A program made the position numbers and the translations under genes. From Sipunculus nudus (taxonomy: Eukaryota; Annelida; Sipuncula; Golfingiida; Sipunculidae), in assembly GCA_026874595.1 (NCBI GenBank), contig CM049314.1:57522300-57586299 (forward strand): a DNA stretch of 64,000 nt. Reading direction: 5' to 3'. Shown here piece after piece: positions 1 through 58,642 of this stretch. Positions within the stretch are counted from its first letter, which is position 1. Each line of letters begins with the position of its first letter. Below the pieces are notes generated by a model. That model saw nothing but the letters and a program-made list of their open reading frames with translations, did no database searches and was not told the DNA's origin.

Positions 1-358
1 TGACAGTTCTAATTATTACCATTTGGACCAAAGTTGATGAAGCTTCTCATAATACAACAAACTGGAAGGAATACAGTCGTGCAGGATACTCTGATGTTAT
101 GTATAATATATGCTTTATGTATCATTAATCTCAATATCTGGAGTAAAACTTTAAAGCGGATGCTTATGTTTCTTCTTATAATGTTCCACTACACCATAAA
201 GATAGATCGGTTTTGAAGTATTGAGTTGGTATCCCAAAAGTATGCCAGTTATTGTCTGGTATGTATCGCATGTGTTCCTTTGTTCAGTATGAGAAAAACA
301 TTTTTTGGAGACGTGTGATCGATGGCGCTCTTTGAATGTTATATTCTGAGGAACCTAC

Positions 359-664
359 ATATCTATTGACAATAACAAACATTGCCAATATAAATCCTAA
401 GATATCGAGACAGTAATATACGCCGTACAAATATATTTCCACAGGCATTCCTTTAACTGAAATGGCTGAAATGAGACTGGCGACCAAAGAGGCGGCTACA
501 GGGAACACCCCCCGTTTTCCTGTTTCTCATTAGGTATTACAAAGTGTTGTTTCCGCATTTATTTCGGATTGCATGGTAAATTCTATGACGGCGGTAATAG
601 CCAATGCTAAACCCAATACTAACCAGTCAACGCAGTGAAAGCCACGATGCCCATTCAAAGCCAT
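359..664 (-). pseudogene. SLC5-family sodium/solute cotransporter first exon, frameshifted copy 1
   Basis: Reading the minus strand from an ATG at 664 gives a first transmembrane segment (VDWLVLG, then an AI-AVI stretch). After frame breaks it gives the block FPVAASLVASLISAISVKG followed by MPVEIYLYG. This resembles the TM1-TM2 region of SLC5 transporters of the monocarboxylate/multivitamin type, which move small anions with sodium across the plasma membrane. A GTAGGT donor follows codon RY at 359. An extra G in the run at about 508-514 and a stop before the YLM motif break the frame. No other exon of the gene is recognised nearby, so this is a duplicated relic or a lone exon of a gene lying to the left. 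Family assignment is from motif memory. Confidence 0.6.
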
Positions 665-1143
665 TCTTAACCCTGTGAATAACCCACGCTCGACATATAC
701 TGACTGACAAAATCTAACATACCAGAGGCTATTGATGCATAGGTAGATAAAAAAGGCGAATATAAATGTTCGAGAATGGGAGCGAGGCGTATAATTAATG
801 ACAAGTATTCTAAAAACTGTCTTTACTCTGGTAAAATGTGTCTTGTTTCACACCTGCGTTACTTCCAGCTAGATCTAGATAAGTAAAAAGAATACTTTGG
901 TGATAGGTGTTTCACTCAGTTATGATTTATTGGTACATTTCTACAATTATTGCAACGAACTTGACTTTTGCAAACTGACCAAGGGCAGGTATGAATCGGA
1001 GAAAAAACCGTTCCTGAGCAACGCTTTTCAGCCAAGACAACATTATGAAGATTTAAGAGAGCTAGGTGGTAGAGTAAGCCAAAGACATAGCGATGCATGT
1101 AATGGATCTTTCTGATTATAGTAACTTATTATTAATATATATA

Positions 1144-2940
1144 CTAGCTGCTCCCGTAGAAAATTCACGGCCTTATCTGGTGCATATTTTTGTAATGAGC
1201 TGATAGGAACTAAACGACGCATATTTTAATCCCAGGTTTTTGCAGGAACTTTTGTCATGTGTTTCACTTTTACGATATAAAGATTAATTCTGCTGGAATT
1301 CTTCAGGAACACCCTTCCGCAAAATATCAACACAGAAAGAAAAATTATTCTATTCCAGAAATCACACAAAAATAATTTTTTTTCCGATAAACAACAAAGG
1401 TCCGACAGCTTCATAGCTCGGGAAATATCGTAGATATAACGATCGTATAAAGAAGCATTCTACCGTGAAATAACATGAAAGATGCTTTGTATTAGTTGAA
1501 GCTCAGGCGATATGGTAAAACACGATGTTTATTCAGCGTAGTAAGTTGAGGGTATAGTCTAAGGCATGTTAACAGACACATGCGTTATTTGTATACACAC
1601 GCATATTTCGTTGAAGTCTCTTGTACGCAAAAGGTATAGCTGCCAATTTGAAAAAGATAGGCCAAGAAAAATATATTCCAACAGTATTCAATTTTTTATT
1701 TATGTACTGTAAATTGTCATGGAATAAGCAGGTCTGATGCAAAACTGACAACTCTCCCAGATAAAAAGAAAGCAGGTTGATATATTTTGATGAAGGCATT
1801 TAGCATAGAAACCACTTCAGCCTTGGTTCGTTTCATTGACTTTCAGCAAATTAACGCAAAATGTAATGTACAGATTTTGCTAAAAATTTGTAGAGGGGTA
1901 GAGTAAAACTGCATCCGTAATCCATTACATTTTTGGAGGTAATCGGAATCACCATAATAATTTTTTTCTTCAGTGCCATAATCATAATTCCATAAAGGAA
2001 TAATTATAAGGGGCTATTTCTTTGTCCCCGAGTAGAAGCCGCCCATTCGTTTGCAGTTGTTCTGTCATTCGCCTGTTTCTAAACCATGACAATGTTTTAC
2101 ATAATACGTGCACATATGAACGAACGACTAATTAGTAGATCTCTAATTAGAGATTGAGGACCCTTAGACGTGTGTGCAATCCGCCGCCCTCCTCTCCTTT
2201 CCAGGTCATCCTTTTAAAACTTTTTTCAAACAACCCATAAACCCGCCGAACTAAAAAAAACAATGGTTATCATGGAAAGATACTTCTGAATGTATAAAAA
2301 TCAACATACCTGTAAACCTATTAAAGGGTGATCGTGTAAAGGGGCCACTCAACGGAAAAATGCTCCCTATAAAAAGATTCATGTGGACATGAGTTCCGCG
2401 CTTGAATTTAAAAACTTTACTTCCTTTTGACAGAGTATAATTCCTTAACAGGCGATATAATGGACATGGGGTCAGTAGGGATTACAGGTCGCCTCCAGAA
2501 AAAGCGTGACAGGCGACAAATGTTTTGCTGAACATTTGTGGAGGGTAAGGGTAAAGACATATCAATAGTCCATTTCATTTTGAGGTAATAAGAATCACCA
2601 CAATATATATTTTCTTATAAACCGTTATAACAGGACCATTCCTTTTTCCCCGTGTGGAAGCCACCCATTCGTATTTATTTATTCTGCCACGCGCAAGGTG
2701 ATCTCGTGTTACTAAGCATGGCAGTGTTCACTCATGAAACGCATACACGTGAACACATGAATGATATTAAAGAAGATTCTGATGGAGGTCTGTACGCCCT
2801 GACTAGAGATTCTAGTTTGTTATCAATTTAAAGATGTACTGGTGATATTTCTTCATGTTTCACCGTCCCTGCAGACAACGGATCTTAACAAATATATGTG
2901 ACCCCCCCCCCACCCGATTGATAATTAAGTTGTGGGGCTT
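1144..2940 (-). mobile_element. Hairpin-CTAG-ended interspersed repeat, copy 1 (Helitron-like)
   Basis: On the minus strand the element ends with a CCGTGGA/TCCACGG-type hairpin (one mismatch here), a six-base spacer GAGCAG, then CTAG followed by T. Helitrons end in a short hairpin plus CTRR and insert between A and T. Copies lie at 52776-54510 (same orientation) and 29780-30638 (opposite orientation). The copy at 30 kb has the same end but different flanks, which fixes this boundary. No Rep/helicase coding is visible. The 5' TC end is not identified and the far limit is approximate. An ORF of about 76 codons at 1569-1799 (minus) recurs in all three copies but matches nothing I know. Confidence 0.4.
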
Positions 2941-3360
2941 CTTTTAAAAAAAAAAAAACTTCATAAAACACATGACATGGTCGAACATTTGAAACCATGG
3001 TTATCATGGAAAGATATTTCTGAATGAATAAAAACAACATACCTGTAACCCATAAAAATTTGTCAAACGGTGGTCGTCACCTCACTGGACTCAGTGTTAA
3101 GTGTTGACCAAACTAAAAAGCCCTCGAATTGAAAGCAGAGTCATGTGGTCTTTGGATTAAACACCTTTTCTACCTTTTGAGAGAGACAATGGACTTGGGC
3201 GATCATTGGGGATTATGGTCGACCCGCGTGACCGCGCATTGCACGAAATGCCTTTTGGGCAGGACATGCGCTGTGGCCCCGGTCTTAACAGGCCAGTGAA
3301 AATCCCCGAGGCGCCTCCTGAAAAAGCGTCACAGGCGTGGAGGGCCTTGCAGCACAAAAG
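1890..3360. repeat. Internal diverged tandem duplication, about 0.7-kb period
   Basis: Two successive blocks share ordered landmarks. These are GAGGTAAT-GGAATCACCA (about 1937 and 2583), the phrase on accounting for CCCATTCGT (about 2042 and 2664), TGGTTATCATGGAAAGATA (2263 and 2998), and AAAAAGCGTGACAGGCG (2498 and about 3322). The spacing is roughly 650-820 bp. The same pair is present in the second segmental copy, so the tandem event is older. Most of the first block is absent from the 30-kb copy of the surrounding repeat. Confidence 0.6.
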
Positions 3361-3544
3361 AAACAGGGGCATCTAATGGGGAAATATGAAATTTATAAAT
3401 ATTTAGCTTAATAGGACAATCCCACAAAATAAAACAAACTTGTCCTAGAAGAGCACACCACCGATACGTCTGCCGAATTTGGAGAGTCAAATCAGAACGG
3501 TAGCAAGTAAACCGTGGTCTAGAAAAATCCGAACTCCGTATTAA

Positions 3545-3906
3545 TTATATAGGTAATACCTATTATTAAGGAATTTAGACCGGTATGTTATGCAGCGACT
3601 TTAGACCTGGGTGCTATGCACTGATTTTATACAAAACTATTATGTAGTGACTTTATACCAGACCTTTTACATCTGAGGCCAGATGAAGGATTATCGTACA
3701 TGTGGCTGCTATTATCACTGACACAGATCCGTAGCAGGATACGATGTCAGTAATGACGTATAACGTTAACAAGAGCTTACATTGCTGTTCAGTAATGGTT
3801 ATTAAACCATGTGTTCACAAACTTAATCATTAAATAACCACGATAATATGAAGTAATGCTCTACTACTTGACATGTATTGTACTTGGCGTGAACACAAAA
3901 CCTTCG
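3545..3906 (+). repeat. R-family repeat, truncated copy
   Basis: The block starting TAATACCTATTATTAAGGAA recurs at 9463-9900 and 55120-55572 in the same orientation. Its distal part recurs inverted at 6660-6880. This copy stops where the others continue into TTCCCACAAATATG and a (TA)n tract. It is non-coding. Confidence 0.75.
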
Positions 3907-4287
3907 TTTGCCTGACGTTGCACGTCAAACTAGTCAGAAAATTAGAATAGTAATGTGTGGAAATAACAACATCAAATATTTTTTAGGTGTAAGTCAAAGG
4001 CCGGTGGGACTAATAAACCCTCAGCGTTGAACACACAACATAGTTAAGTTTATTCAAAGCTACAGTTCGCCATGTCGGCACATTTACAAGTTATTTGCTA
4101 ACATATTCACCAACCTGGTGATAAGTTACTATAATCAGACAGATCAAGTACATGCATCGCTATGTGTTTGGCCTACTTATATTAGTTACGTATTATGTTA
4201 TCACTATTTAATTCTTCAGTGTACTCTTATGTGTATTTTAAATAGTATCCATTTAGTTGTTTTACAAATTGACAAGGAAAACATCAC

Positions 4288-4396
4288 CTGGATCTTCATG
4301 ACATGCCAGAGCAATGCCACCTTCCGACCTCTGTAACAAAAACACTCGTCAATCTGCCATTTCCAGCTTTCCTAAAATGTCCGGATTCCTCTCTTC
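4288..4396 (-). pseudogene. Cytokine-like exon 5b, broken inverted copy
   Basis: This is 109 nt long with the same splice sites as its partner at 19822-19930. Codon 16, Gly in the partner, is TGA here (bases 4349-4351), so the reading frame is closed. The rest of the exon is conserved. The expected terminal exon downstream (below 4150) is not found. Confidence 0.8.
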
Positions 4397-4564
4397 CTGT
4401 CAAGTACACATATATGAGCAGCCTTGATTATCTAGACTTTTACAGTTGTTTAAAAGTCTTCCTTTAGGGGTTACACATACAACCTACAATTTAAATGTGA
4501 TATCACATGCCATTTTTTCTACTAAATGAACTAAGACTATTGCATTATAGTAGTTTACCATCAA

Positions 4565-4566
<2 letters not shown>

Positions 4567-4627
<61 letters not shown>
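4567..4627. repeat. (TA)n microsatellite
   Basis: About 30 TA units. The same tract follows exon 4b in the other arm (19571-19621). Confidence 0.97.
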
Positions 4628-4628
<1 letters not shown>

Positions 4629-4775
4629 CAATATGCATGTAATACGTTTGATTGAATTGAGAAAGATTCTGAGTGAATAGCATATATCCTATAATTTGTG
4701 TAATCCGTTCAATATTATACATGGAAAAAAAGACGCGATAAAGGAGCGATAACAAAAACCAAAACCAATTCTTAC

Positions 4776-4918
4776 CTCTGTTACGATACCGGTATTCCTG
4801 AGCGAATCCTTAGAGACATTTGCCCGTATAACACGCCCACTAGCGACGTGATAAAGAACTACAGCTTGCCAGGTGCCGTCCCCAACCCGGTAGTCATAAT
4901 GATATATCTTGAAATTAT
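4776..4918 (-). pseudogene. Cytokine-like exon 4b, inverted copy
   Basis: Same length (143 nt), same acceptor (CTTTCAG) and same donor (GAG then GTAAG) as 19280-19422. The frame is open and encodes the IYHYDYRVGDGTWQAVVLYH motif. It is treated as part of a pseudogene because neighbouring exons carry stops and no 5' exons exist in this arm. Confidence 0.75.
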
Positions 4919-5410
4919 CTGAAAGATACATATAATGTTTTGCCCTTGAAACCAAGGGATTTTTTTCAGAGATTACTTGTCATTACTTAAAATGAATTTA
5001 CTTGATACAAATTATAAACATTTAGAAAGGTAATGAATGAATTGCACGGGTAGATGATGGGTTTTAGGGGATTTATATTGCTGCAATCCGCTATAGGTTA
5101 AAAGGCATTTTGAAACATTTAATAGGCCGAGAAGAGGGCAAGGAAATCCAATTAAATCCTCCCCCGAGTGTAAGGTCTATTTGTACTCCCAAGGCTGTGC
5201 CAAAACCTTATCGATATTATTAAAAGCTTATTATACATATGACTGCTGACTATTGTTATGAAGGAAATGCAACTTTACTGCAGGAACCTGTTGTAACCGG
5301 GGTTTTACTCAGGCACAGGAAAGTTTTAGCATACGAAATGCTCAACAACACAGATTACATTTCTAGCATACGAAAGAGTTCTTCTCCCACTAACACTTCA
5401 CGTAAACAAA

Positions 5411-5676
5411 TTATAAAGACACATCAAAAACTGTCAACAGACCAGATCCTTCTGACCAAATAACGAAATGGTAATTGCCTTCGCTGCTCGGGTTTTTGTC
5501 TTCAGCAACTAGCTTGTTTTCCCGGACATTTAGAACCAATGGCTGTCCGTTTCTCCCTGAACAGGTAAGTGTCGCCATCTCGCGACCGGAAACACCTATC
5601 ATCGGCCACACGTTAAACTAGTGCGAGAAATTTTCAACACAGATCCTATGCCTGCTGTCAAGAGTAATGAACGTGT
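5411..5676 (-). pseudogene. Cytokine-like exon 6, broken inverted copy
   Basis: 266 nt, identical in length to 18528-18793 and nearly identical in sequence. A TAG (bases 5618-5620, plus-strand CTA) replaces the Trp codon of the partner in the HWFN motif, which closes the frame early. The acceptor TTTTTGCAG is retained. Confidence 0.8.
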
Positions 5677-6007
5677 CTGCAAAAAGTTAATTTAAATAAT
5701 GATATAGGGACTATTTTCTGGTGCCCTCAAAAACTAGATTAAACATAAGGCTATCTTGTCATCACCCAGATACATTAACTGCTTGTATATTTCTCCAAAG
5801 CAGTTATATTTCCAAATACTATTATCTAATTACAAGTGTTTTACACATGTGTTGATGACCTTCATGTGGTTAATACATCTGCAATGTTACAGTTTATTGT
5901 GAAGTGACATTAATTTGTTGGTTAGCTGGTCAGATATTCTTTCCAATCCTAGTAGCTCAGCTGCATGGTAATCATTAATACCATTATATTGCATTATATG
6001 TACTCAC

Positions 6008-6093
6008 CGGGCCGGGCAACAAGTTCCAATTTGACGTCACTTCCGCTTCTTCTGAAGAAGTAGAGTAAATTCTTGGGCTGAACACTCCACGTT
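6008..6093 (-). pseudogene. Cytokine-like exon 5, inverted copy
   Basis: 86 nt with conserved acceptor (TGCATAG) and donor (GTGAGT), partner of 18115-18200. It keeps the phase 2 to phase 1 frame. One visible change gives Leu for Phe before the ELVARP motif. Confidence 0.7.
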
Positions 6094-6384
6094 CTATGCA
6101 AGTCGTGGCAACCGACTTTTACGGGAATACATTAAAACTACTCTCGACAGCCATTCATATATTACAAAAAAAGTGAAAAAAAAAACTTTTTCATGATGCT
6201 AAGTTATCTGAAGTTCGATTAATAACAATATATAGGTGTATTAAGATAGGTTAAGAAGAATGTTCACAGAGAGTTTATATTTTGAGGGAATAGCTAATTC
6301 GGAACAAATATGTCTCTGTTCCAAAGTGCACCTTTCAAAGTAATATCATTGATGCCAACTGTGGTATCGGTATTGGCCAACATA

Positions 6385-6388
6385 TTAA
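6385..6388. other. Empty TTAA target site matching the Kolobok-like insertion
   Basis: The minus-strand CATCTTAATATGTTGGCC corresponds to the two flanks at 12901-12908 and 17732-17747 joined with a single TTAA. It is a paralogous pre-insertion site. Confidence 0.85.
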
Positions 6389-6627
6389 GATGAATGGCGG
6401 GATCTAGGAACATGCTGTTACCGAATAAAGACTTACTTACACTTTGCATTACAAATTATACAGAAATTATCATCAAATTAAAGATCTATGAACGACCTAT
6501 AAAGACCTGAAACCTATAAACGTGTTTTGAATAATTCACATTTTGTCGCCTGAGTACGAATACTGTCCTGTCACATACTGCACAAGAATCGATAATGATC
6601 GATAATAATTGGACATCACTTCATAAT

Positions 6628-6628
<1 letters not shown>

Positions 6629-6663
<35 letters not shown>
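6629..6663. repeat. (TA)n microsatellite
   Basis: About 17 TA units at the end of the inverted arm and the start of an R-family copy. Confidence 0.95.
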
Positions 6664-10581: not shown

Positions 10582-10636
10582 ATGGATGTGTTCCCTGAAA
10601 TGTGTGACAAAGTCACGTGCATGTGCTACCTGGCAG
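10582..10636 (+). CDS. Cytokine-like gene exon 1
   Basis: ATG followed by 18 codons (MDVFPEMCDKVTCMCYLA) and a GTAGTA donor. It leaves one G that completes GAT with exon 2. Chosen because it is the nearest upstream ATG whose frame and phase fit exon 2. A more distal 5' exon is possible. Confidence 0.4.
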
Positions 10637-13600
10637 GTAGTATAAAAATAACTTATTCTTAATGATAAGTTATGACTTCAGCAATAATCATAACCCCATG
10701 CATATAAAACCTGAGATAAAGAAGGCTTATCAATAACATATTCTTATCAAATGGATACTCTCACTCTCATTTAATAGATAGTGCCACCAACAGGTAGTGG
10801 ACCTATCCTTAAAAAATCTGCAGCATCGCTTCTGATTCAAGGCTTTAACCTTTGGCCTTGTTCAGTTTCTTTTAATGCACATTAGCAGTTTTTTTTGTCA
10901 ACATCAAAAGATGGATTACAATCCTTCTACTGTTTTAGGTTTCTCAGTCAGATAATACCATTGCCAAGTGCTTCTGTACAGTGTTTGATCAAGCCGTTAC
11001 AACAAAAAATGCAAGTCTGTCGATCGGTTACTTCTGTGATTCATGGAGCCATGAAATGTGGGAAGGATTTTATCAAGAGCCCTGACGACGATGATGTTGA
11101 AATGATTGTGCCGACGGAGAAGTAATTTTCACTGATTCTGCGAAAATTTTTAATAAATATTTTATCTTGATTCGCACAATATTTAATGTTAGCGTAAAAA
11201 TCTGAAGCATATTTTTCACGTTTGTACTCTCGTACACATGCGTTTAAGAAAAAAATGAAACAAACGTGCAGCAAGTAACATTAGAATTCCTTTGTTATTG
11301 AAATTACTTATAAAAGATTTATAACGTTGTCATTGTTGTAAATTAAACAAAAAGGGAGAGAATATAGTTTAAGCATACGATCTTGAGATGTAAGGTAGTC
11401 CATGATTTAGATATTATTTCATACAAGTGTATTTAATATGTAATAAACAAACCTTTCAACTGCAGGATTGAAGCTCCACGTGATTGTTTGGAGAGGTACA
11501 CGGTGTATATGCAAGACAAGGAATCTCATCTTTACTGGGAAGCGGACGGCAATGGACAGATATTAATGACATCCCTCGACTTCGCAAACATTAAAAAGTG
11601 TGAGTAAACGGTATAATCAATTCTATAAAAAGCTAACTGTATATGAATTTTGACTTTCCTGAGAAATGGTAATATTATATGTCTTCAGATGTGACTGATT
11701 TACCCAATGTCTGTCCTCTTTCCTTTCAATAGAGCAGTTTCTGGGACCGATCCTTCCTCATTAAGATTAAATGACGAAAATGGGTAAACTTGTTTTAATA
11801 TTTCTTGTCCTGATTAAAATATTCACAAAACGTTTAACCCGTTGAGACCGATGTTCACTATATCAAATGGGTAAGTCAAATATATAGAAATTTTGAAACT
11901 GAAAATATAGCATTTTAAGCGAGTGTAGGAGTACACAATGATAGAGTGATAGTGTAAGCATAAGTTGCACTTACATTGCAACATATCATTAGTTGTCCAT
12001 ATTGTGAATTAATTATAATTAATGTAAAATAGTGTTCCGATAATCATCATAAACATTGGCATAACCATAATATGCGAATCCAACTTGTGTAATGGAATTT
12101 GCAACTTCTCATTTAAATGAGACGGTAAGAACTAGTTTTCAGTTGTTTTATAATGATTGTTTGTATGACACGATATCTAATGGAGCATTAATAGTTGGCA
12201 TCCGTTAGAAAGCACTGGAGGTGACTTCTTTGACTAACTTAATGACATTCTCGATCAATTTCACTTTCAAGGCATTTTTAATTTATACTATTGATACTAT
12301 GGTTGTTTATAAAAAGTGATAAACCTATTACGTGAACTACTGACTGAACGTCGTAATATTTCAGACCGTTTTCGGCTGTTTGTCTATCGTTACAACAAAG
12401 GTAAACATCCAGCAGTGGTGGTTATATCTACAACTGACGGGAGCAATCAGTATGTAGACATACCGAACTCACATCATAATCTTAAGTTAAAGGTAAGGCT
12501 GTCGCATTCTGTCCAAATAAACAGGTAAAAATATATGCTAAAAGATAATTTTTGGAGAGCAGTAGAATGCACCAAATTCGTACCTGGTCGTGACCAGTAA
12601 GTCGGAGATGTTTATTAAAATGTATCGACATACACCTATATTCTTTTCAATGGGTTCTTGTCACAATTATGAAGTGATGTCCAATCATTATCGATCATTA
12701 TCGATTCTTGAGCAGTATGTGACAGGAGATGTATGCGTACTAAGGCGACAAAATGTGAATTTTTCAAAACAGGTTTATAGGTTTAAGGTCTTTATAGGTC
12801 TTAATAGGTCTTTAATTTGATGATAATTTCTGTCATATTTGTAATGCAAAGTGTAAATAAGACCTTATTCGGTAACATCAGGTTCCTAGATCCCGCCATT
12901 AATCTTAAAGTCCAAGTCTCAGCACGGAGGTCGATTAGTGTCATATGCCCGATTTCTATGTATCAAAACACGATGTTATGTCCATTTAACATTAATCTAG
13001 CAATTGAATCAATTAATACGACAATTTGAAACTGGCGCGCCGAATACACTCCGGAAACTGCCGAAAGCCAAGGGGGAAACCGTGACGTCACGTGTGGAAG
13101 TCGTCTCACACAAGCATCATGGCGGTGATGCAAAGTAAACAATCCGATGAAACTTCCTATGCGTAAGTAACAACCAAGCGTCCACCGACTATGGTTCAAA
13201 ATAAGTTATTTCGGAAGTATGTCAGAAAGTGATTGTAGTGATGTAGAATTTGAAAATCCTTGAGATATTGAACCATTTCGATCTGAGCCATTGGCTCGAC
13301 GAGGCGAGATCGAAGGAGGGTGTACCGAGTCTGACAGTGACAGCCGTGTCAACAAAGAATCCGATGAACCGTCTCGGGCGTCTATGGGAGCAGGCACCAA
13401 TGACTGGTAATTATTTTATTTTACTCTTACACTGAGTACATCTCAAGTTTCTGTAATTGGGGCAGGTTGATTATTACACTGAAATAAATATCGCTCAACC
13501 AACGCATGTAGCACTGAATGATTTATATGACAGTCATAGGTTTTCCTGGAAAGATGGGTCCCAGCTAGCCCGTTCCTGTGATTTATAAAAATGCCATTAC

Positions 13601-16453
13601 TTATCAGTCAGTGGTCATATCTTGTTGATTTAAGAACCATATTGAATAAGATCCTGGAGCAAAAACCAATCTTGCAGTGTATTTATTATCTGAAAATCTT
13701 TATTTTGAAAAAATACTGATGTACCAAATATTAAAGTTGTCGTTTGACAAGTGACTAAATGTGAATTCTCAACCTGGATGCTATTAAAATTGTAAAATTA
13801 TTTTTACAATACTAATAATGATAACATTATAAAATTTATACTTTTTATTAAAAAATTAAATTTTCACTTTTATTTTTGCACATGTTACATGCACATATAT
13901 ATAATTATTAAATATTTAAAAAAGAATAATTTTGCAAATACTAGATATATACTAGTAATATTCAGGGGCGGATCCAGGATTTAGAAAAAGGGGGCATCTC
14001 CAGGATTTAGAAAAAAAGGGGGGGGGTCCAACCCAGGAGGACAAATGAAAACCCTAAAAAAATGGTCCTCAGGTCTGAAAAAGGGGGGGCCAGGCAGCAA
14101 TTTTAGGTCTGAAGCCTTTTAAAAAAACGTTGTTTCTGATGAAAAAGGGGGGGGGTCCGGACCCCCTGGTTCCGCTTCTGATATTTACAGATCTTTTATG
14201 CATTCCAATAGCCTTGCAAGGGTTATTGTTTTCACTCAATTCTCCGTGTGTGCAGGGGTGTCAATATAGGTAGGAGTGGGGGGGGGGGGGCAGGGATATA
14301 TATCCCCCACTCTTTTTGGCAAGAAGGAAAAGAATGGTCAGTGTAATCACCCCCCCCCCACCACCACACACACACTTTTCTGAGAATATATTAAATTTTA
14401 CAAATGAAATATATTAATTAATTGAATAGTAAACTTTTGTTCAATTTACGATCTTATATATGCCTTTTTTCTAACTTTGATTATCCTCCCATGCCTGTCA
14501 TCCCCCCTCCAACCTTGCGTATCATATCAACACCCTGCAAATCACCCCTCCCCCCATCCTTGAAGCCAGTGTGTGTGTGTGTGTGTGTGTGTGCAAGGTA
14601 TCTTAATAATTGCATTACAGATGTTATTGCAGTTTTACATATAGATCAGTTAAGTGAAAATCTCAGGTGATTTCATTTTGGTGTAAATTCAACTCTGGGG
14701 TTAATGGTTTATGGAGTTTTATAGCTTATTTGTTTACACCTAAGGACATATGTAACCAGATGAACCTATATATGGCCATCTTTGGAGTGTAGTCATGATG
14801 TCACTCCACATGCCAATCCCCTCAAAGGTGTCAGTAAATCTTCATACAGCAAGGCAGACCAAGTTTGTTGTTCATTGTGTTTATAGCCAAGGGCAGCTAT
14901 ATCCCAATGTCCAGGGGTGATTTTCAAAATAATCTGAGTGGAAAAAAAGTTCCCAGGAATAACACAGGTTAATTTACATTTCAGAACACTACCTCTGAAC
15001 ATAATCTTCCACTCAGGACATGCATCCCCAATCAGACACTTTTTAATTTTTCTTTAATCATCCTTTGAGATATTGACATTACTTATGATACACAGCATGA
15101 CTTTTTGTAGGAAATACAGATACACCACATTCAGGCAGCAGGTTTGATGGAACTGGGGATTCCTTGGAAGACACATCAGGATACCACTACCAGCATGTGC
15201 AGTGAAAAGGATTGAGCAGGCATTTATGTCACATGATGGGACATAACTTTATAAAGGGTTCAGATGCCCTAGATGGAACTGATGGGTGTTCATCCTTGAG
15301 CACATTGATGATATCTTAGTTGATAAGATGTAACAATGAACTTCATTATTTCAGTGCACAAGATCTTACACCACAATTATTAGAGCATATTAAATCAATT
15401 CTTGCAGTCAAATGCACACATATCCTGTATAATAGCAGTAATCAAGTTTTTACAATTACAAGATGCAGAAATGGAGCCTTCAAGTCCATGTGCACAATGT
15501 TGTGTTTGAGCTCAAGTTTACCAGCAGGCATCTGGCGAATATAAGTTTGATTCCGCCACTTCTTGTGCAGGTTACAGTTGTTGCATATCTCGCTTACCTG
15601 GACTGCTGTTCCTTAACAAGAATCACCCGATCGTGTGTACAAGATGTGCTGTTTGGACAGATGCTAAACAACTCCATCAGTTGTGAGTGGAATAAAATAA
15701 ATTTGGCACTTGATCTCGGTGTATTTCTTCATATAAGCTAATGCTTTTGGACCATAAAGGTCCTTAAATAGGGCCACGCAGTCAAAAATATCCTCAAATC
15801 CAAACCCTGATGCCATATTGGATATCACATTGGCCTGAAACTTATCACCCCAAATAACCTGAATGGGATCTATATTCAGAAAATTTCTAAAAGATTACTT
15901 AGATGAGGCATTAAGAGGTTCTTAAGGTACATGTATGTGCTTGGAAGCTGCATTGGATTTGGATTTATAGGAATGATGGATGGACCAAGGACTGATGGAC
16001 AGACATCAAGGCAATTATTCTTGAGCGGAGCCTGAATAAAGTCAGTCAGCATGAACAGATTGAATAAACTTATCTCATTTTCTTTACTTCATATTTATAT
16101 ACTGATATAAGAAAAATCTATAATAAATATCAAATTTATAAAGATTAAATATTTAACAATAAGTTCATTGAAGGATGAATCGGTATCATAATCTTCATCA
16201 TCAGAAGGGAAGTATTCATCATCTTTATAAACTGGTGGTGCTTCATCATCATCATCATCATTATCATCTGCTTCTTCTTCTTCACTGAAGATCTGCTATC
16301 TTCTGTATTTTGGCCGACCAGAGCTTCACCAATCAGTGAGCACTGGACACCAGCATTTTTTGTGGATACATTCACTGGGCAACCTGAATTTGAAACAATA
16401 TGCCATTTTCATTGATTTCCAGGACAACTGAAAGATAACTTTTTCATTTGTAA

Positions 16454-16525
<72 letters not shown>

Positions 16526-19500
16526 TAACATAACTTTTCATAAGATCTGTTCACACAATATTCATAGTATTTATGCTTTATTAAAATAAAATTGTGCATG
16601 TGAAATAATATAGGGTAAATAAGGCAAAACGTCACAACTGTAAGCATTAAATGATTATTTAAATCAGAGTGGCCACTGTAATTTGTTAACAAACAATGGG
16701 GGTTATGTACACACCCCTTGACGCACCCCTAATTTGCTGGCTGACTGCCAGGCGATTTGGCAGGAGTGGTGGGTGTTCACAGGTTTCCCTGGAACAAAAG
16801 GGCATAATCCCAGCTTAAAAAAATGCAACAACTTTGCACTAGGCCTCGGAGTAGATTAAGCACAAAAACCGTGTTTACATGGGCGATAATAAGATATATT
16901 CAAATCACGTAATAATTGCTCAAAATTTAAAATATATAAATAACTTTCCCTTTTAGCAGTCAATTTACTCACAGTTATCAGGTGGAGCCCTTTTCTTGTG
17001 ACCTAGCAGGCTTCACACCTTTTCCCAGCGAGTACCTCGGGCGCTTGGCGGCGTTATATTGTCCCGGCCCTTGACTGAAGTTGAAGCAAGGCTGGATCCA
17101 CTCTCAGTCGGCCTTGCAGCGGGTTCTTGTGGATTTATACTCGGAATTGCCCCTTGTATCAGATCTAGTTGTTTTCTTAAATATCCGGCTTACCATTGCT
17201 GATAGTTTTTAAAATCGTCAGGAATCCGGAATTGTGCCCCATACATGACACTGGAAAGTTTTGCAAGGAGTTCCCGACCTACAATCGGCTCGTCCCTGTC
17301 TGACAGGTCCCACTTTTTTTCCTTAAACGTACGTCTTTCGGCCAATTGTGGACGTTCACACTATCCTTGTTGGTATTATTGCATCCACTAAGAACATCTC
17401 GCTTCGTCATTTTGATACTGTGTAAGATCTACAGTGTTTGTCGAGGGGAAAAAACACGGCAGTCAAGGATGCAGACCGGCAAGACGCGGCATGTTGACCC
17501 ATGTGATGTTTACCCAGCGGTGCCACACGTGACGTCACTGAAGCCACGCCCACCGCGTATCACCGAGTGCACCTTTACACTCAGGAGCGTGATCACCGTG
17601 ATGTTTCACGGATAAAATGGAGCATAAATTCGATCTCGTTCAGCTTGAAACTGTGTTGTAAGCACTGTATTAACTTATTAAAAGGGTACATGACGCTTTT
17701 TTAACTTATAAAAGTGCATGAAACTTGGACTTTAATATTTTGGCCAATACCGAAACCACAGTTGGCATCAATGATATTACTTTGAAAGGTGCACTTTGGA
17801 AAAGAGACATATATGTTCCGAATAAGTTATTCCCTTCAAATATAAACTCTCTGTGAACATTCTTCTTAACCAATCTTAATACACCTATAAATTGTTATTA
17901 ATCGAACCTCAGATAACTTAGCATCCTGACAAAGTTTTTTTTTTGCTTTCTGTTGGTAATTTTTTAAATGATAATAAATTTCTATTAAATCTAATCAATC
18001 AATAAGACCTCGGCTAATGTTTTCAAAATAACAAAACATTGGTTATTATATGAATAGCTGTCGAGAGTAGTTTTAATGAATTCCCGTAAAGGTCGGTTGC
18101 CGCGACTTGCATAGAACGTGGAGTGTTCAACCCAAAAATTTACTCTACTTCTTCAGAAGAAGCGGAAGTGACGTCAAATTTGAACTTGTTGCCCGGCCCG
18201 GTGAGTACATATAATGCAGTATAATGGTATTATTGTTCACCATACAGCTAAGCCACTATGATTGAAGAGAATATCTGACCTGCTAACCAAAAAATTAATG
18301 TCATAATAATCTGTAACATTGCAAATGTGTTAACCACATGAAGGTCATCAACACATGTGTAAAACTCTTGTAATTAGATAATAGTATTTGGAAATATTAA
18401 CTGCTTTGGATAAATATACAAGCAGTTAATGTATCTGGGTTATGACAAGATAGCCTTATTTTTAATCTAGTTTTTGAGGGTACCAGAAAATAGTCCCTAT
18501 ATCATTATTTAAATTAACTTTTTGCAGACACGTTCATTACTCTTGACAGCAGGCATAGGATCTGTGTTAAAAATTTCCCGCACTGGTTTAACGTGTGGCC
18601 GATGATAGGTGTTTCCGGTCGCGAGATGGCGACACTTACCTGTTCAGGGAGAAACGGTCAGCCATTGGTTCTAAATGTCCGGGAAAACAAGCTAGTTGCT
18701 GAAGACAAAAACCCGAGCAGCGAAGGCAATTACCATTTCGTTATTTGGTCAGAAAGATCTGGTCTGTTGACAGTTTTTGATGTATCTTTATAATTTGCTT
18801 ACGTGAAGTGTTAGTGGGAGAAGAACTCCTTCGTATGCTAGAAATGTAATCTTTGTTGTTAAGCATTTCGTATGCTAAAACTTTCCTGTGCCTGAGTAAA
18901 ACCCCGGTTACAACAGGTTCCTGCAGTAAAGTTGCATTTCCTTCATAACAATAGTCAACAGACATATGTATAATAAGCTTTTAATAATATCGATAGGCAC
19001 AGCCTTGGAATTACATATAGACCTTACACTAGGGGGAGGATTTAGTTGGTTTCCTTGCCCCCTTCTCGGCCTATTAAATGTTTTAAAATGCCTTTTAAAC
19101 TATAGCGGATTGCAGCAATATAAATCCCCTAAAACCCATCATCTACCCGTGTAATATGACATTCATTACCTTTTTAAATGTATATAATTTTTATCAAGTA
19201 AATTCATTTTAAGTAATGACAAGTAATCTCTAAAAAAATCCCTTGGTTTCAAGGGCAAAACGTTATATGTATCTTTCAGATAACTTCCAGATATATCATT
19301 ATGACTACCGGGTTGGGGATGGCACCTGGCAAGCTGTAGTTCTTTATCACGTCGCTAGTGGGCGTGTTATACGGGCAAATGTCTTTACGTATTCGCTCAG
19401 GAATACCGGTATCGTAACAGAGGTAGGAATTGGTTTGGTTTTTGTTATCGCTCCTTTATCGCAAGTCTTTTTTTCCATGTATAATATTGAACGGATAACA

Positions 19501-19570
19501 CAAATTATAGGATATATGCTATTCACTCAGAATCTTTCTCAATTCAATCAAACGTATGACATGCATATTG

Positions 19571-19623
<53 letters not shown>

Positions 19624-20568
19624 GCTTCCTTGATGGTTAACTACTATAATGCAATAGTCTTAGACAATTCATTTTGGTAGAAAAAATGGCATGTGATATC
19701 ACATTTAAATTGTAGGTTGTATGTGTAACCCCTAAAGGTGGACACGTAAACAACTATTACAGTCTTGTTTCATTAAAACATTTAAGATAATCAAGGGTGC
19801 TCATATATGTGTACTTGGCAGGAAGAGAGTAATCCGGACGCTTTAGGAAAGCTTGAAATGGCAGATGGACGCGTGTTTTTGTTACAGAGGTCAGAAGATA
19901 GCATTACTCTGGCATGTCATGAAGATCCAGGTGATGTTTTCCTTGTCAAATTGTAAAACAACTAAATGGATATTATGTAAAATACAAATAAGAGTACACT
20001 GAAGAATTAAATAGTGATAACATATTGCGTAATAAATACACAACACTGAATTAGTTTTGTAAATTATTATTAAATCGATACTCAATATTTAGATAATAAA
20101 AATGTAAGATTGCAATAAAAGATAGAAAACACTGTTGGACATTGAAACTTTCAAGACATTTATATTAGTATTATTTTAGATTTTTTCAAGAGATATGTTC
20201 ATAAAAGCTCTTATTGAATATTTATTTCAGATATGTGGCTCGCCGTTCAATTGCAGTTACAGTCCGGCGTTCACCCGGTCATTGTGACATCAAGAACCTC
20301 ACGAAACCAAAAAGCTCACTTTCAATTTACAAAGCTTCAGAGATCCAAGAGTAAGAAAAAGCGAAGGTTTCTTCAAAGAAGACACTGTGTCAGAAGATCA
20401 CAACGTATGTATGGTCATGGCTCAGTTATAAACCCATCTATTCAGGATAAGGCGCCGGTACGGTCCCAGGATTTGTTAGAAAATGTCAAAATCTCACAAC
20501 AGCCGCAATGGTGTCATGGCTATTCCTCTTTAACTCCCCGCCGTGGGGCACTTTTAGTTCGGAGTTAA
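10582..20568 (+). CDS. Beta-trefoil cytokine-like gene (IL-1/FGF superfamily candidate), alternative 3' exon sets
   Basis: Shared exons are 10582-10636, 10911-11121 and 11466-11599. Form A adds 12365-12524, 18115-18200 and 18528-18793 (912 nt, 303 residues). Form B adds 19280-19422, 19822-19930 and 20231-20568 (990 nt, 329 residues). All introns are GT-AG, all phases agree, and both totals divide by three without internal stops. Both alternatives complete the same Tyr codon after exon 3. The protein has a Cys-rich N-terminus without a clear signal peptide and an acidic SPDDDDVEM stretch. A strand-rich region follows (YTVYMQDKESHLYW, then FRLFVYRYN or FQIYHYDYR). Form A has FELVARPDTFIT, close to the IL-1 signature region. 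Form B's SRNQKAHFQF end and basic tail look more FGF-like. Extracellular signalling is inference. The ATG and exon 1 are the weakest parts. A 4.8-kb transposon lies in intron 4 of form A. Confidence 0.55.
10911..11121 (+). CDS. Cytokine-like gene exon 2 (pro-region)
   Basis: The acceptor is a T-run followed by CATCAAAAG. The donor GTAATT after GAGAA is non-optimal but leaves AA, which with the first G of exon 3 restores the Lys codon. It encodes a basic/Cys-containing stretch and then the acidic KSPDDDDVEMIVPTEK segment, a plausible processing region before the trefoil. Cleavage is speculation. Confidence 0.5.
11466..11599 (+). CDS. Cytokine-like gene exon 3 (first trefoil strands)
   Basis: Acceptor ACTGCAG, donor GTGAGT, phase 2 to phase 1. 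It encodes IEAPRDCLERYTVYMQDKES and then a HLYWEADGNGQ hairpin, ending NIKK plus one T. It is the common donor exon for both alternative sets. No copy exists in the inverted arm at 4-6.6 kb. Confidence 0.6.
12365..12524 (+). CDS. Cytokine-like gene exon 4 (form A)
   Basis: Acceptor ATATTTCAG; starts AC, making TAC (Tyr) with exon 3. It encodes FRLFVYRYNKGKHPAVVVIS, the counterpart of FQIYHYDYRVGDGTWQAVVL in exon 4b. Two donors are possible. GTAAAA at 12525 gives phase 2 and fits exon 5. GTAAGG at 12493 is stronger but ends in phase 0 and fits no form A exon found. It could instead fit exon 5b at 19822, which starts in phase 0. Confidence 0.55.
12661..12908 (+). repeat. Left part of the plus inverted-duplicate arm
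   Basis: Reverse complement of 6385-6625, ending at the TTAA where the transposon is inserted. Non-coding intron sequence. Confidence 0.88.
12905..12908. repeat. TTAA target-site duplication, left
   Basis: Matches TTAA at 17732-17735. The paralogous locus has only one TTAA (6385-6388). Confidence 0.88.
13083..13097. promoter_or_regulatory. Sub-terminal TGACGTCACGTGTGG motif, left end
   Basis: A CRE-type palindrome (TGACGTCA) overlaps a CACGTG E-box about 175 bp inside the left end, upstream of the plus-strand ORF. The inverted counterpart lies at 17524-17537. Confidence 0.45.
13218..13412 (+). pseudogene. P2X7-ballast-like protein, N-terminal exon relic
   Basis: ATG followed by an acidic stretch (SESDCSDVEFENP, then a TGA) and EPFRSEPLARRGEIEGG, ending GAGTNDW at a GTAATT donor. 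Animal proteins with a P2X7 C-terminal-like domain often start with an EPYxFEPLA-type acidic N-terminus ending in a TDW motif before the zinc-binding part. One in-frame stop makes this copy dead. The assignment is from memory of the family. Confidence 0.5.
13963..14180. mobile_element. Small TIR element (hAT-like MITE) nested in the transposon
   Basis: 218 bp with imperfect ends CAGGGGCGGATCCAGG and, inverted, CAGAAGCGGAACCAGG. The interior is G-rich repeats of AAAAAGGGGG. Target duplication is unclear (AATATT against ATATTT). The CAGGGGCGG type of end is common in hAT MITEs. Confidence 0.6.
14566..14595. repeat. (GT)n microsatellite
   Basis: About 13 GT units. Confidence 0.95.
15108..15290 (+). 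pseudogene. P2X7-ballast-like domain exon relic
   Basis: After a TTTGTAG acceptor the frame reads RYTTFRQQV, stop, WNWGFLGRHIRIPLPACAVK, RIEQAF and later YKGF. The known domain pattern is YRxxAYRQ, W, LGRxxRxxxPSCxVxxIRxxFP, YxGF. In P2X7 receptors this domain forms the cytoplasmic zinc/nucleotide-binding ballast. Related proteins without a channel are scattered in invertebrate genomes. Two in-frame stops. Confidence 0.6.
15500..15735 (-). pseudogene. Kolobok-type transposase relic, middle part
   Basis: Minus-strand frames read KFILFHSQLMELFSICP and then THDRVILVKEQQS. After a frameshift they read ICNNCNLHKKWRNQTYIRQM and PAGKLEL. This follows the order typical of THAP/Kolobok-like transposases: a K(F/Y)IVFxxxLMxLFxxCP block, a C-x2-C block with a Trp, then a MPAGN-like block. 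It is broken by frameshift and stops. Catalytic residues downstream cannot be traced. Confidence 0.5.
16150..16375 (-). pseudogene. Kolobok-type transposase relic, acidic linker
   Basis: Minus strand after a TTCAG acceptor reads CPVNVSTKNAGVQCSLIGEA and then, one frame over, an EEEEADDNDDDDDDE acidic run and PPVYKDDEYFPSDDEDYDTD. A VGVQC-type motif and acidic linker precede the core in this transposase group. Much of the acidic run is a TCA-repeat microsatellite. Confidence 0.4.
16457..16524. repeat. (TA)n microsatellite
   Basis: About 34 TA units within the transposon. Confidence 0.97.
17310..17410 (-). pseudogene. THAP-like N-terminus relic of the transposase
   Basis: Minus-strand ATG at 17410 gives MTKRDVLSGCNNTNKDSVNV and HNWPKDVRLRKK, then an A-run frameshift into KWDLSDRDEP. 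The GC-N and H-x-(F/W)PKD-x-x-LRKKW spacing is THAP-like. The first Cys is replaced by Asp and the distal C-x2-H pair is not seen, so identity is tentative. Confidence 0.4.
17524..17537. promoter_or_regulatory. Sub-terminal CACACGTGACGTCA motif, right end
   Basis: Inverted counterpart of 13083-13097, upstream of the minus-strand ORF. Confidence 0.45.
17732..17735. repeat. TTAA target-site duplication, right
   Basis: See 12905-12908. Confidence 0.88.
18115..18200 (+). CDS. Cytokine-like gene exon 5 (form A)
   Basis: Acceptor TTGCATAG, donor GTGAGT. AG from exon 4 plus A gives Arg. Encodes TWSVQPKNLLYFFRRSGSDV and KFELVARP; the final G plus AC of exon 6 gives Asp. The FFRRSG and FELVxxP blocks resemble strands 8-10 of IL-1 proteins. 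Conserved in the inverted copy. Confidence 0.55.
18528..18793 (+). CDS. Cytokine-like gene exon 6, terminal (form A)
   Basis: Acceptor TTTTTGCAG, stop TAA at 18791-18793. Encodes TFITLDSRHRICVKNFPHWF, then MATLTCSGRNGQPLVLNV and GNYHFVIWSERSGLLTVFDV. The TLTC..GxPLVL..FVIWSE order again looks trefoil-like, as if a second partial module follows the first. The inverted copy has a TAG in the HWF motif. Confidence 0.55.
19280..19422 (+). CDS. Cytokine-like gene exon 4b (form B)
   Basis: Acceptor ATCTTTCAG; starts AT, giving TAT (Tyr) with exon 3. Phase 1 to 0, donor GTAGGA. Encodes FQIYHYDYRVGDGTWQAVVL and YHVASGRVIRANV. Similar to exon 4 in position, phase and sequence, so a likely duplicated, mutually exclusive exon or the start of a tandem paralogue. 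Confidence 0.6.
19571..19621. repeat. (TA)n microsatellite
   Basis: About 25 TA units in the intron after exon 4b. Confidence 0.97.
19822..19930 (+). CDS. Cytokine-like gene exon 5b (form B)
   Basis: Acceptor TACTTGGCAG, donor GTGATG, phase 0 to 1. Encodes EESNPDALGKLEMADGRVFL and LQRSEDSITLACHEDP. Codon 16 is GGA here but TGA in the inverted copy. Confidence 0.6.
20231..20568 (+). CDS. Cytokine-like gene exon 6b, terminal (form B)
   Basis: Acceptor TTATTTCAG, stop TAA at 20566-20568. Encodes DMWLAVQLQLQSGVHPVIVT, SRTSRNQKAHFQF, then a strongly basic run (KSKKKRRFLQRRH) and a low-complexity tail. WLAV, R-QKxHF and a basic tail recall the C-terminus of FGFs; basic tails bind heparan sulfate in that family. 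No copy in the inverted arm. Confidence 0.55.
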
Positions 20569-21444: not shown

Positions 21445-22320
21445 GTGCAAATGGAACTTTTCTTCTAGGACGGAACTTTTAGTCCTGACCGACACTAACA
21501 TCCGTGACGATGAAGCAAGCATTAAATGTTTGAAAGGCTTAAAGTGGCTCCTGATGTGTCACAATGAAATCAAGATAAGTTATTTTGAGGAATAAAACTG
21601 CTGCTTTTAATTGAGAGAACATTCCTTTAAATCCAGAGAACAATCCTTGAAGGCAAAACACTTTTGAATTTACGTGATCTGCATACCCTGATATATTTGA
21701 TATTGCGGAACAACCATATAAGTGAGTGTATTACGTCAGGTAGTACTGGTTGGATCCACGAGGTTCTGTATTTAGACTTGAGTTATAACCGCCTGGTCCT
21801 TCATCTGGATTTTGAATATTTTCCGAAAAATCATTCTGTTCTTCATAATCCGCTCTTTTGTGGCTTTAGAGTCAGATCATTAGAGAAAAGATTAAGCAGG
21901 CATGTATCAGCGGCCTGCAAAATACCACGAGAAAAGGCTAATGGCAAATCGGACATGTGTTCATATACGTTTCAAAATAAATTGAGAGCCAAAATACCGC
22001 TAAGGTGTGATCTACCTGAAAATGAACCATTAAATGAGTTATACAATCTGTATAACAACGGAACCATTGTGGTATTTGCCGTTATCGGTGGACCAGATAT
22101 TCAAATAAATATGACGACACCGGACAATAACTTAGATATTTATCAGCATCCCTTTTCGAAAAAGGTGTTTTTAATTGTCACTATACCAGGGTTAAATATT
22201 TATCAGCATCCCTTTTCGAAAAAGGTGTTTTTAATTGTCACTATACCAGGGTACCATGAAGACGAGTATATATGTTCTGAGCGGACTCAATTTAGCCGAG
22301 AAGAGGTGACCAGCAAGTGA
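21445..22320 (+). pseudogene. Leucine-rich-repeat protein gene, damaged copy
   Basis: The 218-codon open part (21664-22320) has LRR blocks YLILRNNHISECIT and EVLYLDLSYNRLV. A Cys-containing C-terminal flank (NPLFCGFRV, SAACKI) and a unique tail follow, ending REEVTSK, with no membrane segment. Upstream, 21445-21600 encodes degraded LRRs (LKGLKWLLM) with stops and a deletion compared with 58643-59227. The first Met of the open part comes from TTG, so there is no good start. A perfect 20-codon tandem duplication sits in the tail. LRRs mediate binding; the partner is unknown. It may still be a 3' exon of a live gene. Confidence 0.5.
22136..22252 (+). repeat. 60-bp in-frame tandem duplication in the LRR gene
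   Basis: Bases 22136-22192 and 22196-22252 are identical, a 60-bp period that repeats 20 codons (IYQHPFSKKVFLIVTIPG plus two). Identity suggests a recent event. Confidence 0.95.
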
Positions 22321-35329: not shown

Positions 35330-38300
35330 CTTGCCGGAAATCTCCGATTTCGGCAAGTTGACTGGTCAGTCGCGGATGTCTGTTTGTCTGTATGTCTGTC
35401 TGTCTGTTTGTTGCTTGCCGGAAAACTTCGATTTCGGCAAACAGGTTAGCCGGTCGAGGATGTCTGTTTGTTTGTTTGTTCCCTCTCTTCAGGTGGCCAT
35501 TTTGCGGCAATCGCTTTCAAACTTACAAAGTCGATGGAAAATTTAAAATGACAGGAGCCTATTGTTTTTGGTCAATATAGGTCAATGGTCAAGGACATCA
35601 AAAGTATACAAAACGTTTCTTCCTCATATCTTTGTCACTATGAGTCGTATCTACTTCAACAGTAGCTCATTTTAATCGTCATTCAAAGGTCTGTCTTCTG
35701 TTGTGTAGCTGACTCAATTTGCGTTACCATGGTAACGTATTTTTGGGAAAAAGTGCTGATATTTGAAAAAAAGGGGTCAGTTTTAAAGCTACAAAGGTTA
35801 GTATTTTTTTTCATCAGGGAGCATACAAGTAGTGTTATTTGATTATATTACAAGTCTCGCAATATTTCGTGTAATATCTCGTCAAGCGAGATATTTCGAG
35901 ATATCACTTTATGATAGCCTAGAGTCCACATGTGTTCTGGAATCATTTTGAAACTGATATATCTTAAGTTTGACATAAATATCTAGAAAAGAATTTTGCA
36001 TTTTTTCCGGATATGGCTGCTAGTGGGCGCTGCACTTGAACCTCCTGAACATATCCCCAAAATTACAAACCTCAGTTACAGAAACTATAGCTTGGTTTCT
36101 TCATCTAGGTCTTCTACATAACCTGGGAAAGTCATCTGGTGTAAATTTTTTGTCACTTTGTCAGTATGTCTATCTGTTTGTCAGTTCTCCTTAAATTAGC
36201 CTGCTTGCTGGTTCTTCGCCTATATATCATTCTACAGGCCACAGTTTGGAAGGAATCCTTTTCAAAATGGTACATGTTATGTCTTTCACTAAAATCTCGA
36301 AACAAATTTTTCATTTTTCGAATATGGCCGCTAGTGGGCGCTGCACATGACTCTCCCAAACATATAAAATTTTTTTATCCATATCTCCATAATTATAATT
36401 CTCAATTACAGAAACTTTGGCTAATTTCTTCCTCCGGGTCTTCTTCATAAATTGGTTATTTCATCTTGTCTAGAGCTTGTGTCACCTTGTCAGTATGTCT
36501 GTCTGTTTGTCAGTTGTCCTCAAAGTCGCCTGCTTGCTGATTCTTACGTCTCACATATATCATTTTACAAGCCACAGTTTTGAAAGAATCCTTTTGAAAC
36601 TGTTATATCTTATGTCATACACTAATATCTCAAAAATACTTTTTCATTTTACCGATATGGCCTCTGGGGGGCGCTGAACACGACCCTAACGCTTATATCA
36701 TTATATTGGCCGTATCTCCAAAACTCAAAGCCTCAATTACATAAACTATAGCTTATTTTCTTCCTCCGATATAATCTGGTGTAGTCATTTGGACACAATC
36801 TTGAGTTACTTTTTCAGTGTGTCCGTCTGTTTGTCAGTTGTCTTCAAATTCGCCTGCTTGCTGGTTTTTGCGTGTCACATATACCATTGTACAGACCACA
36901 GTTTTACAGGAATCCTTTTGAAACTGGTACAACTGATGTCATACACTAATATCTCGACAGTGTTTTTTTTTTTTTAATTTTCGGGATATGGTTGCTAGGG
37001 GCGCTGCACTCGTACTACTGCAACATATCAGTGCTTGGCCTTTCCTCTAAAACTGTGAACTTTATCTGCACTAACTATAACTCATTTTGTTTCTATATAT
37101 CTTCCCCATATGTTTATCTAATCATATGTTAACTAAAATGTGCCAGTGTGTCAGGATGTTTTTTTCAGTTTGTGAGTTGTCAGCTTTGTATGCTTTCATG
37201 TTATTTTGTGTGATATATGTCATTCTAGAGTCCCTACTTCCTCGGCATTCACTCTGAATGTCACTCAATTGATGGAAAACCGACACTTTGTATCGTCTGT
37301 CCGTCTGTCAGTCATTTCAACTTCCGGCAAGCGTTCGACCTCTAGTCTACAGGTCGCAATTTTGCAGCAATCGCTTTCAAATTACACAGTTGATGAAAAA
37401 TCTAAAATGACAGGAGTCTGTTGTTTTTGGTCAATATAGGTCAAAGGTCAAGGTCAAGGTAAGCACAAGTTTGCAAAACGGTTTTTATTCATATCTTTGT
37501 CACCATTAGTCGCATCTACTTCAACTGTAGCTCATTTTAATCGTCATACCAAGGCCTTTCTTCTCGTGTGTAGCTGAGTCAAATTGGCCGCAACCATGGT
37601 TATGTATTTTCGGGTATTGTCATGATATTCGAAAATAAAGGTCTTATTTTTCTAACTTTGTCAGTTTTAAAGCTAGAGAGGCCTAGTTTTTTGCATCAGC
37701 TGGTATTCAATTGGTGTTATTTGATCATTTTAAACGTCTCGCAATATCTCGTACATTATCTCGCTCAACGAGATATTTAGAGATATCACTTAATGATAGA
37801 CTAGAGTCCACAATTATGCAGAAATCATTTTAAAACTGATATATCTTATGTCTGACATTAATATCTAGAAAAAGATTTTCCATTTTTCGGATATGGCTGT
37901 TAGGGGGCGCTGCACTTGAACTTCCCGAACATATCAATTTTTTGACATATCTCCAAAATTATATACCTCAGTTACAGAAACTATAGGTTGGTTTCTTCCT
38001 CTGGGTCTTCTCCATAACCTGAGAACATCATCTGATCTAAATCTTGTGTCAATTTGTCAGTATGTCTCTCTGTTTGTCAGTTGTCCTCAAATTCGCCTGC
38101 TGGCTGGTTTTCGCCTATATAGCATTCTACAGGCCACAGTTTTGAAGGAATTCTTTTGAAAATGGTACGTGTTATTACTTTCACTAAAATCTCGAAACAA
38201 GTTTTTCATTTTCCGAATATGGCCGCTAGGGGGTGCTGCACCTGACTCTCCCCAACATATCATTTTTTTGGCCGTATCTCCATAACTATAATTCTCAATT

Positions 38301-40166: not shown

Positions 40167-40607
40167 ATGCGTAGCGATGATATTCAGAGGACGACGTCAC
40201 CTCACGGTTGGTATGCCACAGGCGACATGGCCTCGAAGAACGACATTGGTCATATCAAGATCGAAGTCAGATATGTTGATATAATAAAACGGGCCACGAT
40301 AACGATATCTCCAGCAGAAGTTGAAAATATAATTTGTGAACATCCTGATATTTCTGCCATTCAAGCAATTGGCGTCCCCAGGGAACGACTAGGAGAAGAG
40401 CTTTACGCGTGCGTGATTCCGAAGCAGAGCAGCACGGTGAAGGAAGCAGACTTGTTGGATTGGTTTGCTGGAAGATTCGGAGATTCCAAAGTTGGACATT
40501 ACAGAGCCCCGAAGTATGTGGAAATATTTGAAGATTCTCCACGTCTCCCCACTGGAAAGATGTCGAGAAAAGAATTGAAAGCAAATGTTCTTGCTAGTTT
40601 TAAATGA
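40167..40607 (+). pseudogene. Acyl-CoA synthetase C-terminal fragment (truncated paralogue)
   Basis: 146 codons align with residues about 410-550 of the enzyme at 49299-50951. It keeps GWYATGD (A7) and GKMSRKEL (A10 with the acylation Lys). The A8 GRK motif of the paralogue has become EVRYVD. No N-terminal half, AMP-binding P-loop or promoter is found upstream. Similarity begins abruptly at TTSPHGW just after a TTTCTTTAG acceptor-like site. The frame is intact, so it may be a recent truncated copy or a last exon whose partners lie elsewhere. Confidence 0.65.
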
Positions 40608-58590: not shown

Positions 58591-58642
58591 ATGCAGTAAC
58601 TCGTTATACGGGGTTTTCTCGCGAATTAAACCCTGATGCCAA

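Follow-up and report, generated by a model that had tools for sequence, protein, structure and literature searches.

The window analysed here, a stretch of 64,000 nucleotides, holds a gene whose principal form (form A) probably encodes an IL-1-like β-trefoil cytokine in a non-vertebrate animal; from the sequence comparisons below we place this reading, with its predicted fold and function, at roughly 70%. The IL-1 reading of form A is well supported although unproven, and an FGF reading is not supported. Three upstream exons are followed by two sets of three 3′ exons, A and B:

10586..10636, plus strand: exon 1, uncertain, one of many open combinations and part of the 858-nt and 945-nt models; alternative start at 10582
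10952..11121, plus strand: exon 2, pro-region with an Asp-rich stretch, a single open frame with AG/GT borders; an alternative acceptor gives 10911-11121
11466..11599, plus strand: exon 3, predicted first strands of the trefoil domain, ending in phase 1
12365..12492, plus strand: exon 4 of set A, 128 nt, phase 1 to 0
18092..18200, plus strand: exon 5a of set A, 109 nt, phase 0 to 1, containing NLLYFFRRSGSDVKFELVARP
18528..18793, plus strand: exon 6a of set A, predicted last strands, C-terminal extension and stop
19280..19422, plus strand: exon 4b of set B, 143 nt, phase 1 to 0, resembling exon 4
19822..19930, plus strand: exon 5b of set B, 109 nt, phase 0 to 1
20231..20568, plus strand: exon 6b of set B, basic tail and stop

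With the preferred N-terminal splice, exons 1-3 joined to 4-5a-6a make form A (858 nt, 285 aa) and joined to 4b-5b-6b make form B (945 nt, 314 aa). Both are open to the final stop, with GT/AG intron borders in each modelled form. Neither exon 1 nor the beginning of exon 2 is unambiguous, since many combinations are open. An earlier note on this DNA gave assembled lengths of 912 and 990 nt; the latter is recovered for form B with a start at 10582 and exon 2 from 10911, whereas the same start gives 903 nt, not 912, for form A. Its description of the central junction is borne out: the last base of exon 3, at 11599, is a T left over in phase 1, and both exon 4 (from 12365) and exon 4b (from 19280), each after AG, rebuild a Tyr codon, exon 3 being phase-compatible with either downstream triplet. 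Further on, exons 6a and 6b each start by completing an Asp codon. The note also held that so much open frame is unlikely by chance. At the local stop frequency of 0.0553 the stop-free probabilities are indeed small (7.5e-5 for 4+5a+6a and 1.5e-5 for 4b+5b+6b), but they are optimistic because the exons were selected as open. Stronger evidence than openness comes from the middle exons 5a and 5b, both exactly 109 nt with equal phases, and from an IL-1 similarity that crosses form A's three junctions. Judged from these features the exons of both sets are real, and they would be spliced as modelled. By eye, the pro-region is acidic and a signal peptide is not evident.

The similarity of form A to IL-1 emerges from an unbiased search. 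When its 202-aa core (exon 3 onward) is compared by phmmer with 177,635 distinct PDB sequences, six matches are obtained at E ≤ 10, of which the top three are IL-1 alpha chains (E 0.011, 0.012 and 0.013) and the remainder unrelated proteins (E 0.077, 0.19 and 0.95). The alignment with IL-1 alpha is colinear over about 100 residues, spans exons 3, 4, 5a and 6a, and sets NLLYFFRRSGSDVKFELVARPDTFI of form A opposite a 25-residue IL-1 alpha segment. In Smith-Waterman comparisons of the core, 0 of 2000 shuffles do as well against IL-1 alpha, 16 against IL-33, 51 against IL-1Ra and 107 against IL-36Ra; the corresponding counts are 424 for IL-1 beta, 637 for IL-18, 761 for FGF1 and 1454 for FGF2. By this pairwise measure three or four of the six IL-1 sequences exceed the background, whereas two fail to. 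The HMM built from all six (IL-1 alpha, IL-1 beta, IL-1Ra, IL-36Ra, IL-18 and IL-33) gives form A 22.8 bits, a score reached by none of 2000 shuffles (best 6.2 bits) and equivalent to E 0.00065 when scaled to PDB size; exons 4-5a-6a without exon 3 still score 19.2 bits. Comparison of form A with IL-1 by hhalign yields a score of 34.8, where the best of 300 shuffles attains 21.8; the probability is only 64-72%, and the alignment covers the trefoil strands. Of the three columns where Phe is invariant in the six IL-1 sequences, the first two are Phe in form A as well and the third is Trp.

Could an unrelated, fast-evolving gene simply happen to resemble IL-1 alpha? The profile check proposed in the earlier note would fit that explanation, as Pfam IL1 gives no match at E ≤ 10 to the forms, whole or trimmed, under HMMER filters that drop most matches above about 0.1. 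A protein search with residues 119-285 of form A returns no relative at E ≤ 10 from 73 candidates. One family member also makes the largest single contribution: in leave-one-out runs with a 145-aa core, form A falls to 6.6 bits without IL-1 alpha, compared with 24.4 without IL-1 beta, 14.2 without IL-1Ra, 21.8 without IL-36Ra, 20.7 without IL-18 and 18.0 without IL-33. In each of these six runs, however, 0 of 1000 shuffles are as good as form A; as a yardstick, held-out IL-18 and IL-33 themselves score 20.1 and 8.4 bits. Chance similarity is improbable, given the agreement among the intron phases, the PDB search, the leave-one-out runs and the tests by shuffling and by profile comparison.

A different explanation is that form A is a diverged FGF or other β-trefoil protein, sharing with IL-1 only the common trefoil superfamily. 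FGF2 obtains 14.7 bits on the full IL-1 HMM, so that superfamily relatives can reach such scores, and it outscores form A in the leave-one-out runs that omit IL-1 alpha (12.2 versus 6.6 bits) and IL-1Ra (15.5 versus 14.2); the model therefore partly measures the IL-1/FGF superfamily. Introns of phases 1 and 0 in similar positions also follow from the exon sizes of FGF1. Yet neither FGF1 nor FGF2 matches form A, either pairwise or by an FGF1/FGF2 HMM, whose real score is equalled by 806 of 2000 shuffles, and the six PDB matches at E ≤ 10 include, IL-1 alpha apart, neither an FGF nor any other trefoil protein. Exon 4, at 128 nt, is moreover nearer in length to its IL-1 counterpart (137 nt in pacu) than to the FGF exon (104 nt). 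This explanation appears improbable, and an IL-1-like ligand is the preferred reading of form A.

The earlier note had singled out a block of form A near the vertebrate IL-1 signature. Compared with the broadened signature [FCL]-x-S-[ASLV]-x2-[PSK]-x2-[FYLIV]-[LIV]-[SCAT]-T-x7-[LIVMK], as it stands in an excerpt of PMC7687281, this block (FELVARPDTFITLDSRHRICV) agrees at seven of nine fixed positions, the Ser and Thr being different. The resemblance is weak by itself, as 145 of 5000 shuffles of form A match at least seven of the nine positions somewhere. Form B agrees at five of nine at the corresponding site, so the full signature of that excerpt is found in neither form. Among the conserved IL-1 motifs named in an excerpt of a 2025 article, F-F and FES-PG-WF (PMC12108812), form A keeps the F, E, P and last F of the second, but not its S, G and W.

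Gene structure points towards IL-1. Excerpts on turtle IL-1 beta (PMC4880838) give coding intron phases of II, 0, I, I and 0 and place the twelve strands in the last three exons, or in the last four according to a figure legend. For pacu IL-1 beta, the excerpted account (PMC7687281) lists exons of 74, 34, 73, 181, 168, 137 and 541 nt, a 5′ UTR of 76 nt and a signature that occupies residues 231-251; these values imply that the 137-nt exon runs from phase 1 to 0, and the signature's first Phe is the 34th residue of the next exon. The counterpart in form A is the 128-nt exon with phases 1 and 0, followed by an exon whose 30th residue is the Phe; in form B a 143-nt exon has the same phases and a Leu is the 30th residue of the exon that follows. 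Introns of phase 1 and then 0 within the trefoil region are thus found here as in the genes of both excerpts (PMC4880838; PMC7687281). Relative to those IL-1 beta genes, the present gene departs in having phase 2, not 1, before exon 3 and an extra intron after exon 5a, at the signature Pro.

Beyond the predicted trefoil, the second half of exon 6a (18605-18790) is faintly like IL-1 strands 5-10, as if it were a partial second trefoil; the last 62 residues of form A score 3.1 bits on the IL-1 HMM, and 3 of 2000 shuffles do as well.

The locus has been rearranged at least by an insertion and a duplication, located as follows:

12909..17731, no strand assigned: 4.8-kb insertion in the intron between exons 4 and 5a, with TTAA on both flanks and ends AGTCCAAGT...ACTTGGACT, piggyBac-like
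4178..6631, minus strand: inverted, decayed partial copy, with 5a at 6116-6008, 6a at 5676-5411 (stop), 4b at 4918-4776 and 5b at 4396-4288 (stop)

The insertion has 9-bp inverted ends and no long open frame (the longest among those listed is 103 codons), and it is missing from the inverted copy. That copy is 92-93% identical in three blocks, lacks exons 4 and 6b, and carries stops in 6a and 5b. It contains 5a-6a-4b-5b, and this order therefore predates the duplication. Divergence between the two copies gives no significant indication of exon constraint (exons 95.9% identical, the rest 94.3%, p 0.19).

Several other features lie in the window. A 3.9-kb stretch at 2-3909 is repeated 50 kb away (51633-55473) at 95-96% identity, and contains fragments like a sodium:solute symporter, with a Pfam SSF match (E 0.0007) that falls short of the family's cut-off. 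Positions 40184-40585 and 49299-50948 hold an AMP-binding (acyl-CoA ligase-like) gene, which has one exon and encodes 550 aa, and the C-terminal part of another copy, with 81% DNA identity between them; the best database match of the ligase is a Nematostella protein at 29% identity, which is not informative on taxon. Diverged direct repeats, 75-81% identical, occur in several copies at 35486-38612. A leucine-rich-repeat receptor fragment is found at 58637-59227 (Pfam LRR_8, E 1.5e-15), and a 229-codon open frame adjoining the IL-1-like gene (21631-22320) is LRR-like by eye, with no Pfam match.

The IL-1 likeness put forward in the earlier note stands for form A, through the PDB search, shuffles, profiles, intron phases and exon length, whereas form B gives only a weak signal. 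Its score on the IL-1 HMM is reached by 41 of 2000 shuffles and is not convincing; PDB searches with it return neither FGF nor IL-1 but just a pair of glutathione transferases with E close to 1, and a protein search yields no relative at E ≤ 10 from 900 candidates. The FGF-like end that had been ascribed to form B is not supported: no FGF is among its PDB matches, its pairwise scores with FGF1 and FGF2 fall within the shuffle range, as do those of form A, and its score on the FGF1/FGF2 HMM is equalled by 255 of 2000 shuffles. An FGF identity of form B was accordingly rejected.

How, then, do the two exon sets relate? The proteins of exons 4 and 4b are similar (shuffle fraction 0.009), while those of 5a and 5b and of 6a and 6b are not similar above chance (0.32 and 0.33). 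The phases and layout fit the earlier proposal of interchangeable 3′ exon sets, in which set B would be spliced to exons 1-3. Set B probably arose by duplication of exons 4-6 and would most simply be an alternative 3′ end of the gene (exon 3 to 4b), or perhaps a relic; an exon 3-4b splice would produce a second ligand that shares its N-terminus with the first. It is not far short of an even bet, however, that part of the gene was duplicated in tandem and that set B is what is left of this duplicate, with no first exons of its own, such that only form A works and there is no alternative splicing. The weak IL-1 similarity of form B, the dissimilarity of the 5a/5b and 6a/6b proteins and a locus that has already yielded one decayed copy would all suit such a remnant. 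On the other hand, 4b, 5b and 6b together form 195 open codons, their borders and phases are compatible with exon 3, and tblastn finds no second exon 2 or exon 3 within the window, which leaves exon 3 as the sole upstream partner seen.

The invertebrate origin supposed in the earlier note is likely from CpG content. The observed/expected CpG ratio is 0.78 (2-kb quartiles 0.74 and 0.85), compared with values near 0.2 in mammals and near 0.5-0.6 in bony fish, and a jawed vertebrate is therefore unlikely. Excerpts of two 2022 articles (PMC9020223 and PMC9382457) credit invertebrates with IL-1R-like genes but describe IL-1 genes as missing from them; one of the two adds jawless vertebrates to the groups that lack IL-1, and the former also mentions IL-1-like activities in invertebrates. 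No invertebrate IL-1 gene in print is among the literature matches listed, which are a minority of all matches in a literature with few papers from subscription journals.

By analogy with IL-1, the processing, receptor and function of form A may be envisaged as follows. An acidic pro-region (exons 1-2) would precede a trefoil domain built from exons 3, 4, 5a and the start of 6a, which is then extended by about 60 residues. Immune or barrier cells would produce the precursor, which would have no signal peptide and would leave the cell upon damage or after cleavage near the Asp-rich stretch, to signal via a TIR-domain receptor of IL-1R or Toll type. A bolder proposal, and an unlikely one at present, is that the gene is a true invertebrate IL-1 orthologue whose two alternatively spliced 3′ sets swap most of the trefoil to give two ligands, for example an agonist and an antagonist. 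Were it a true orthologue, IL-1 would predate the vertebrates and pair with the IL-1R-like receptors known from invertebrates. A non-vertebrate gene with IL-1 likeness and IL-1 intron phases would push the origin of the ligand far back, and would open the "receptor before ligand" puzzle to direct test.

Among known systems, the FGF family would be expected to have the same superfamily fold, and FGF1 the phases 1 and 0 noted above, but neither form A nor form B matches FGF1 or FGF2 above shuffles. Invertebrate IL-1-like activities (PMC9020223, excerpt) and IL-1 alpha-like staining in annelids (PMC9756803, excerpt) suggest IL-1-type function outside vertebrates; in the excerpts, however, these are activities and antibody signals without a gene, whereas here there is a gene without a tested activity. 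The closest system is the IL-1 family itself, and within it IL-1 alpha, with IL-33 and IL-1Ra also near. Form A differs from this family in lying outside the jawed vertebrates by base composition, in its extra phase-1 intron at the signature Pro and its phase 2 before exon 3, in lacking the Ser, Gly and Trp of FES-PG-WF, and in having a C-terminal extension and a second 3′ exon set. It resembles the family in sequence across the trefoil region, where the Phe-rich block and the F-E....P..F of the FES-PG-WF block are among the similar parts, in its in-domain intron phases of 1 and 0 and similar exon length, and in a pro-region that stands in front of the domain with, by eye, no evident signal peptide.
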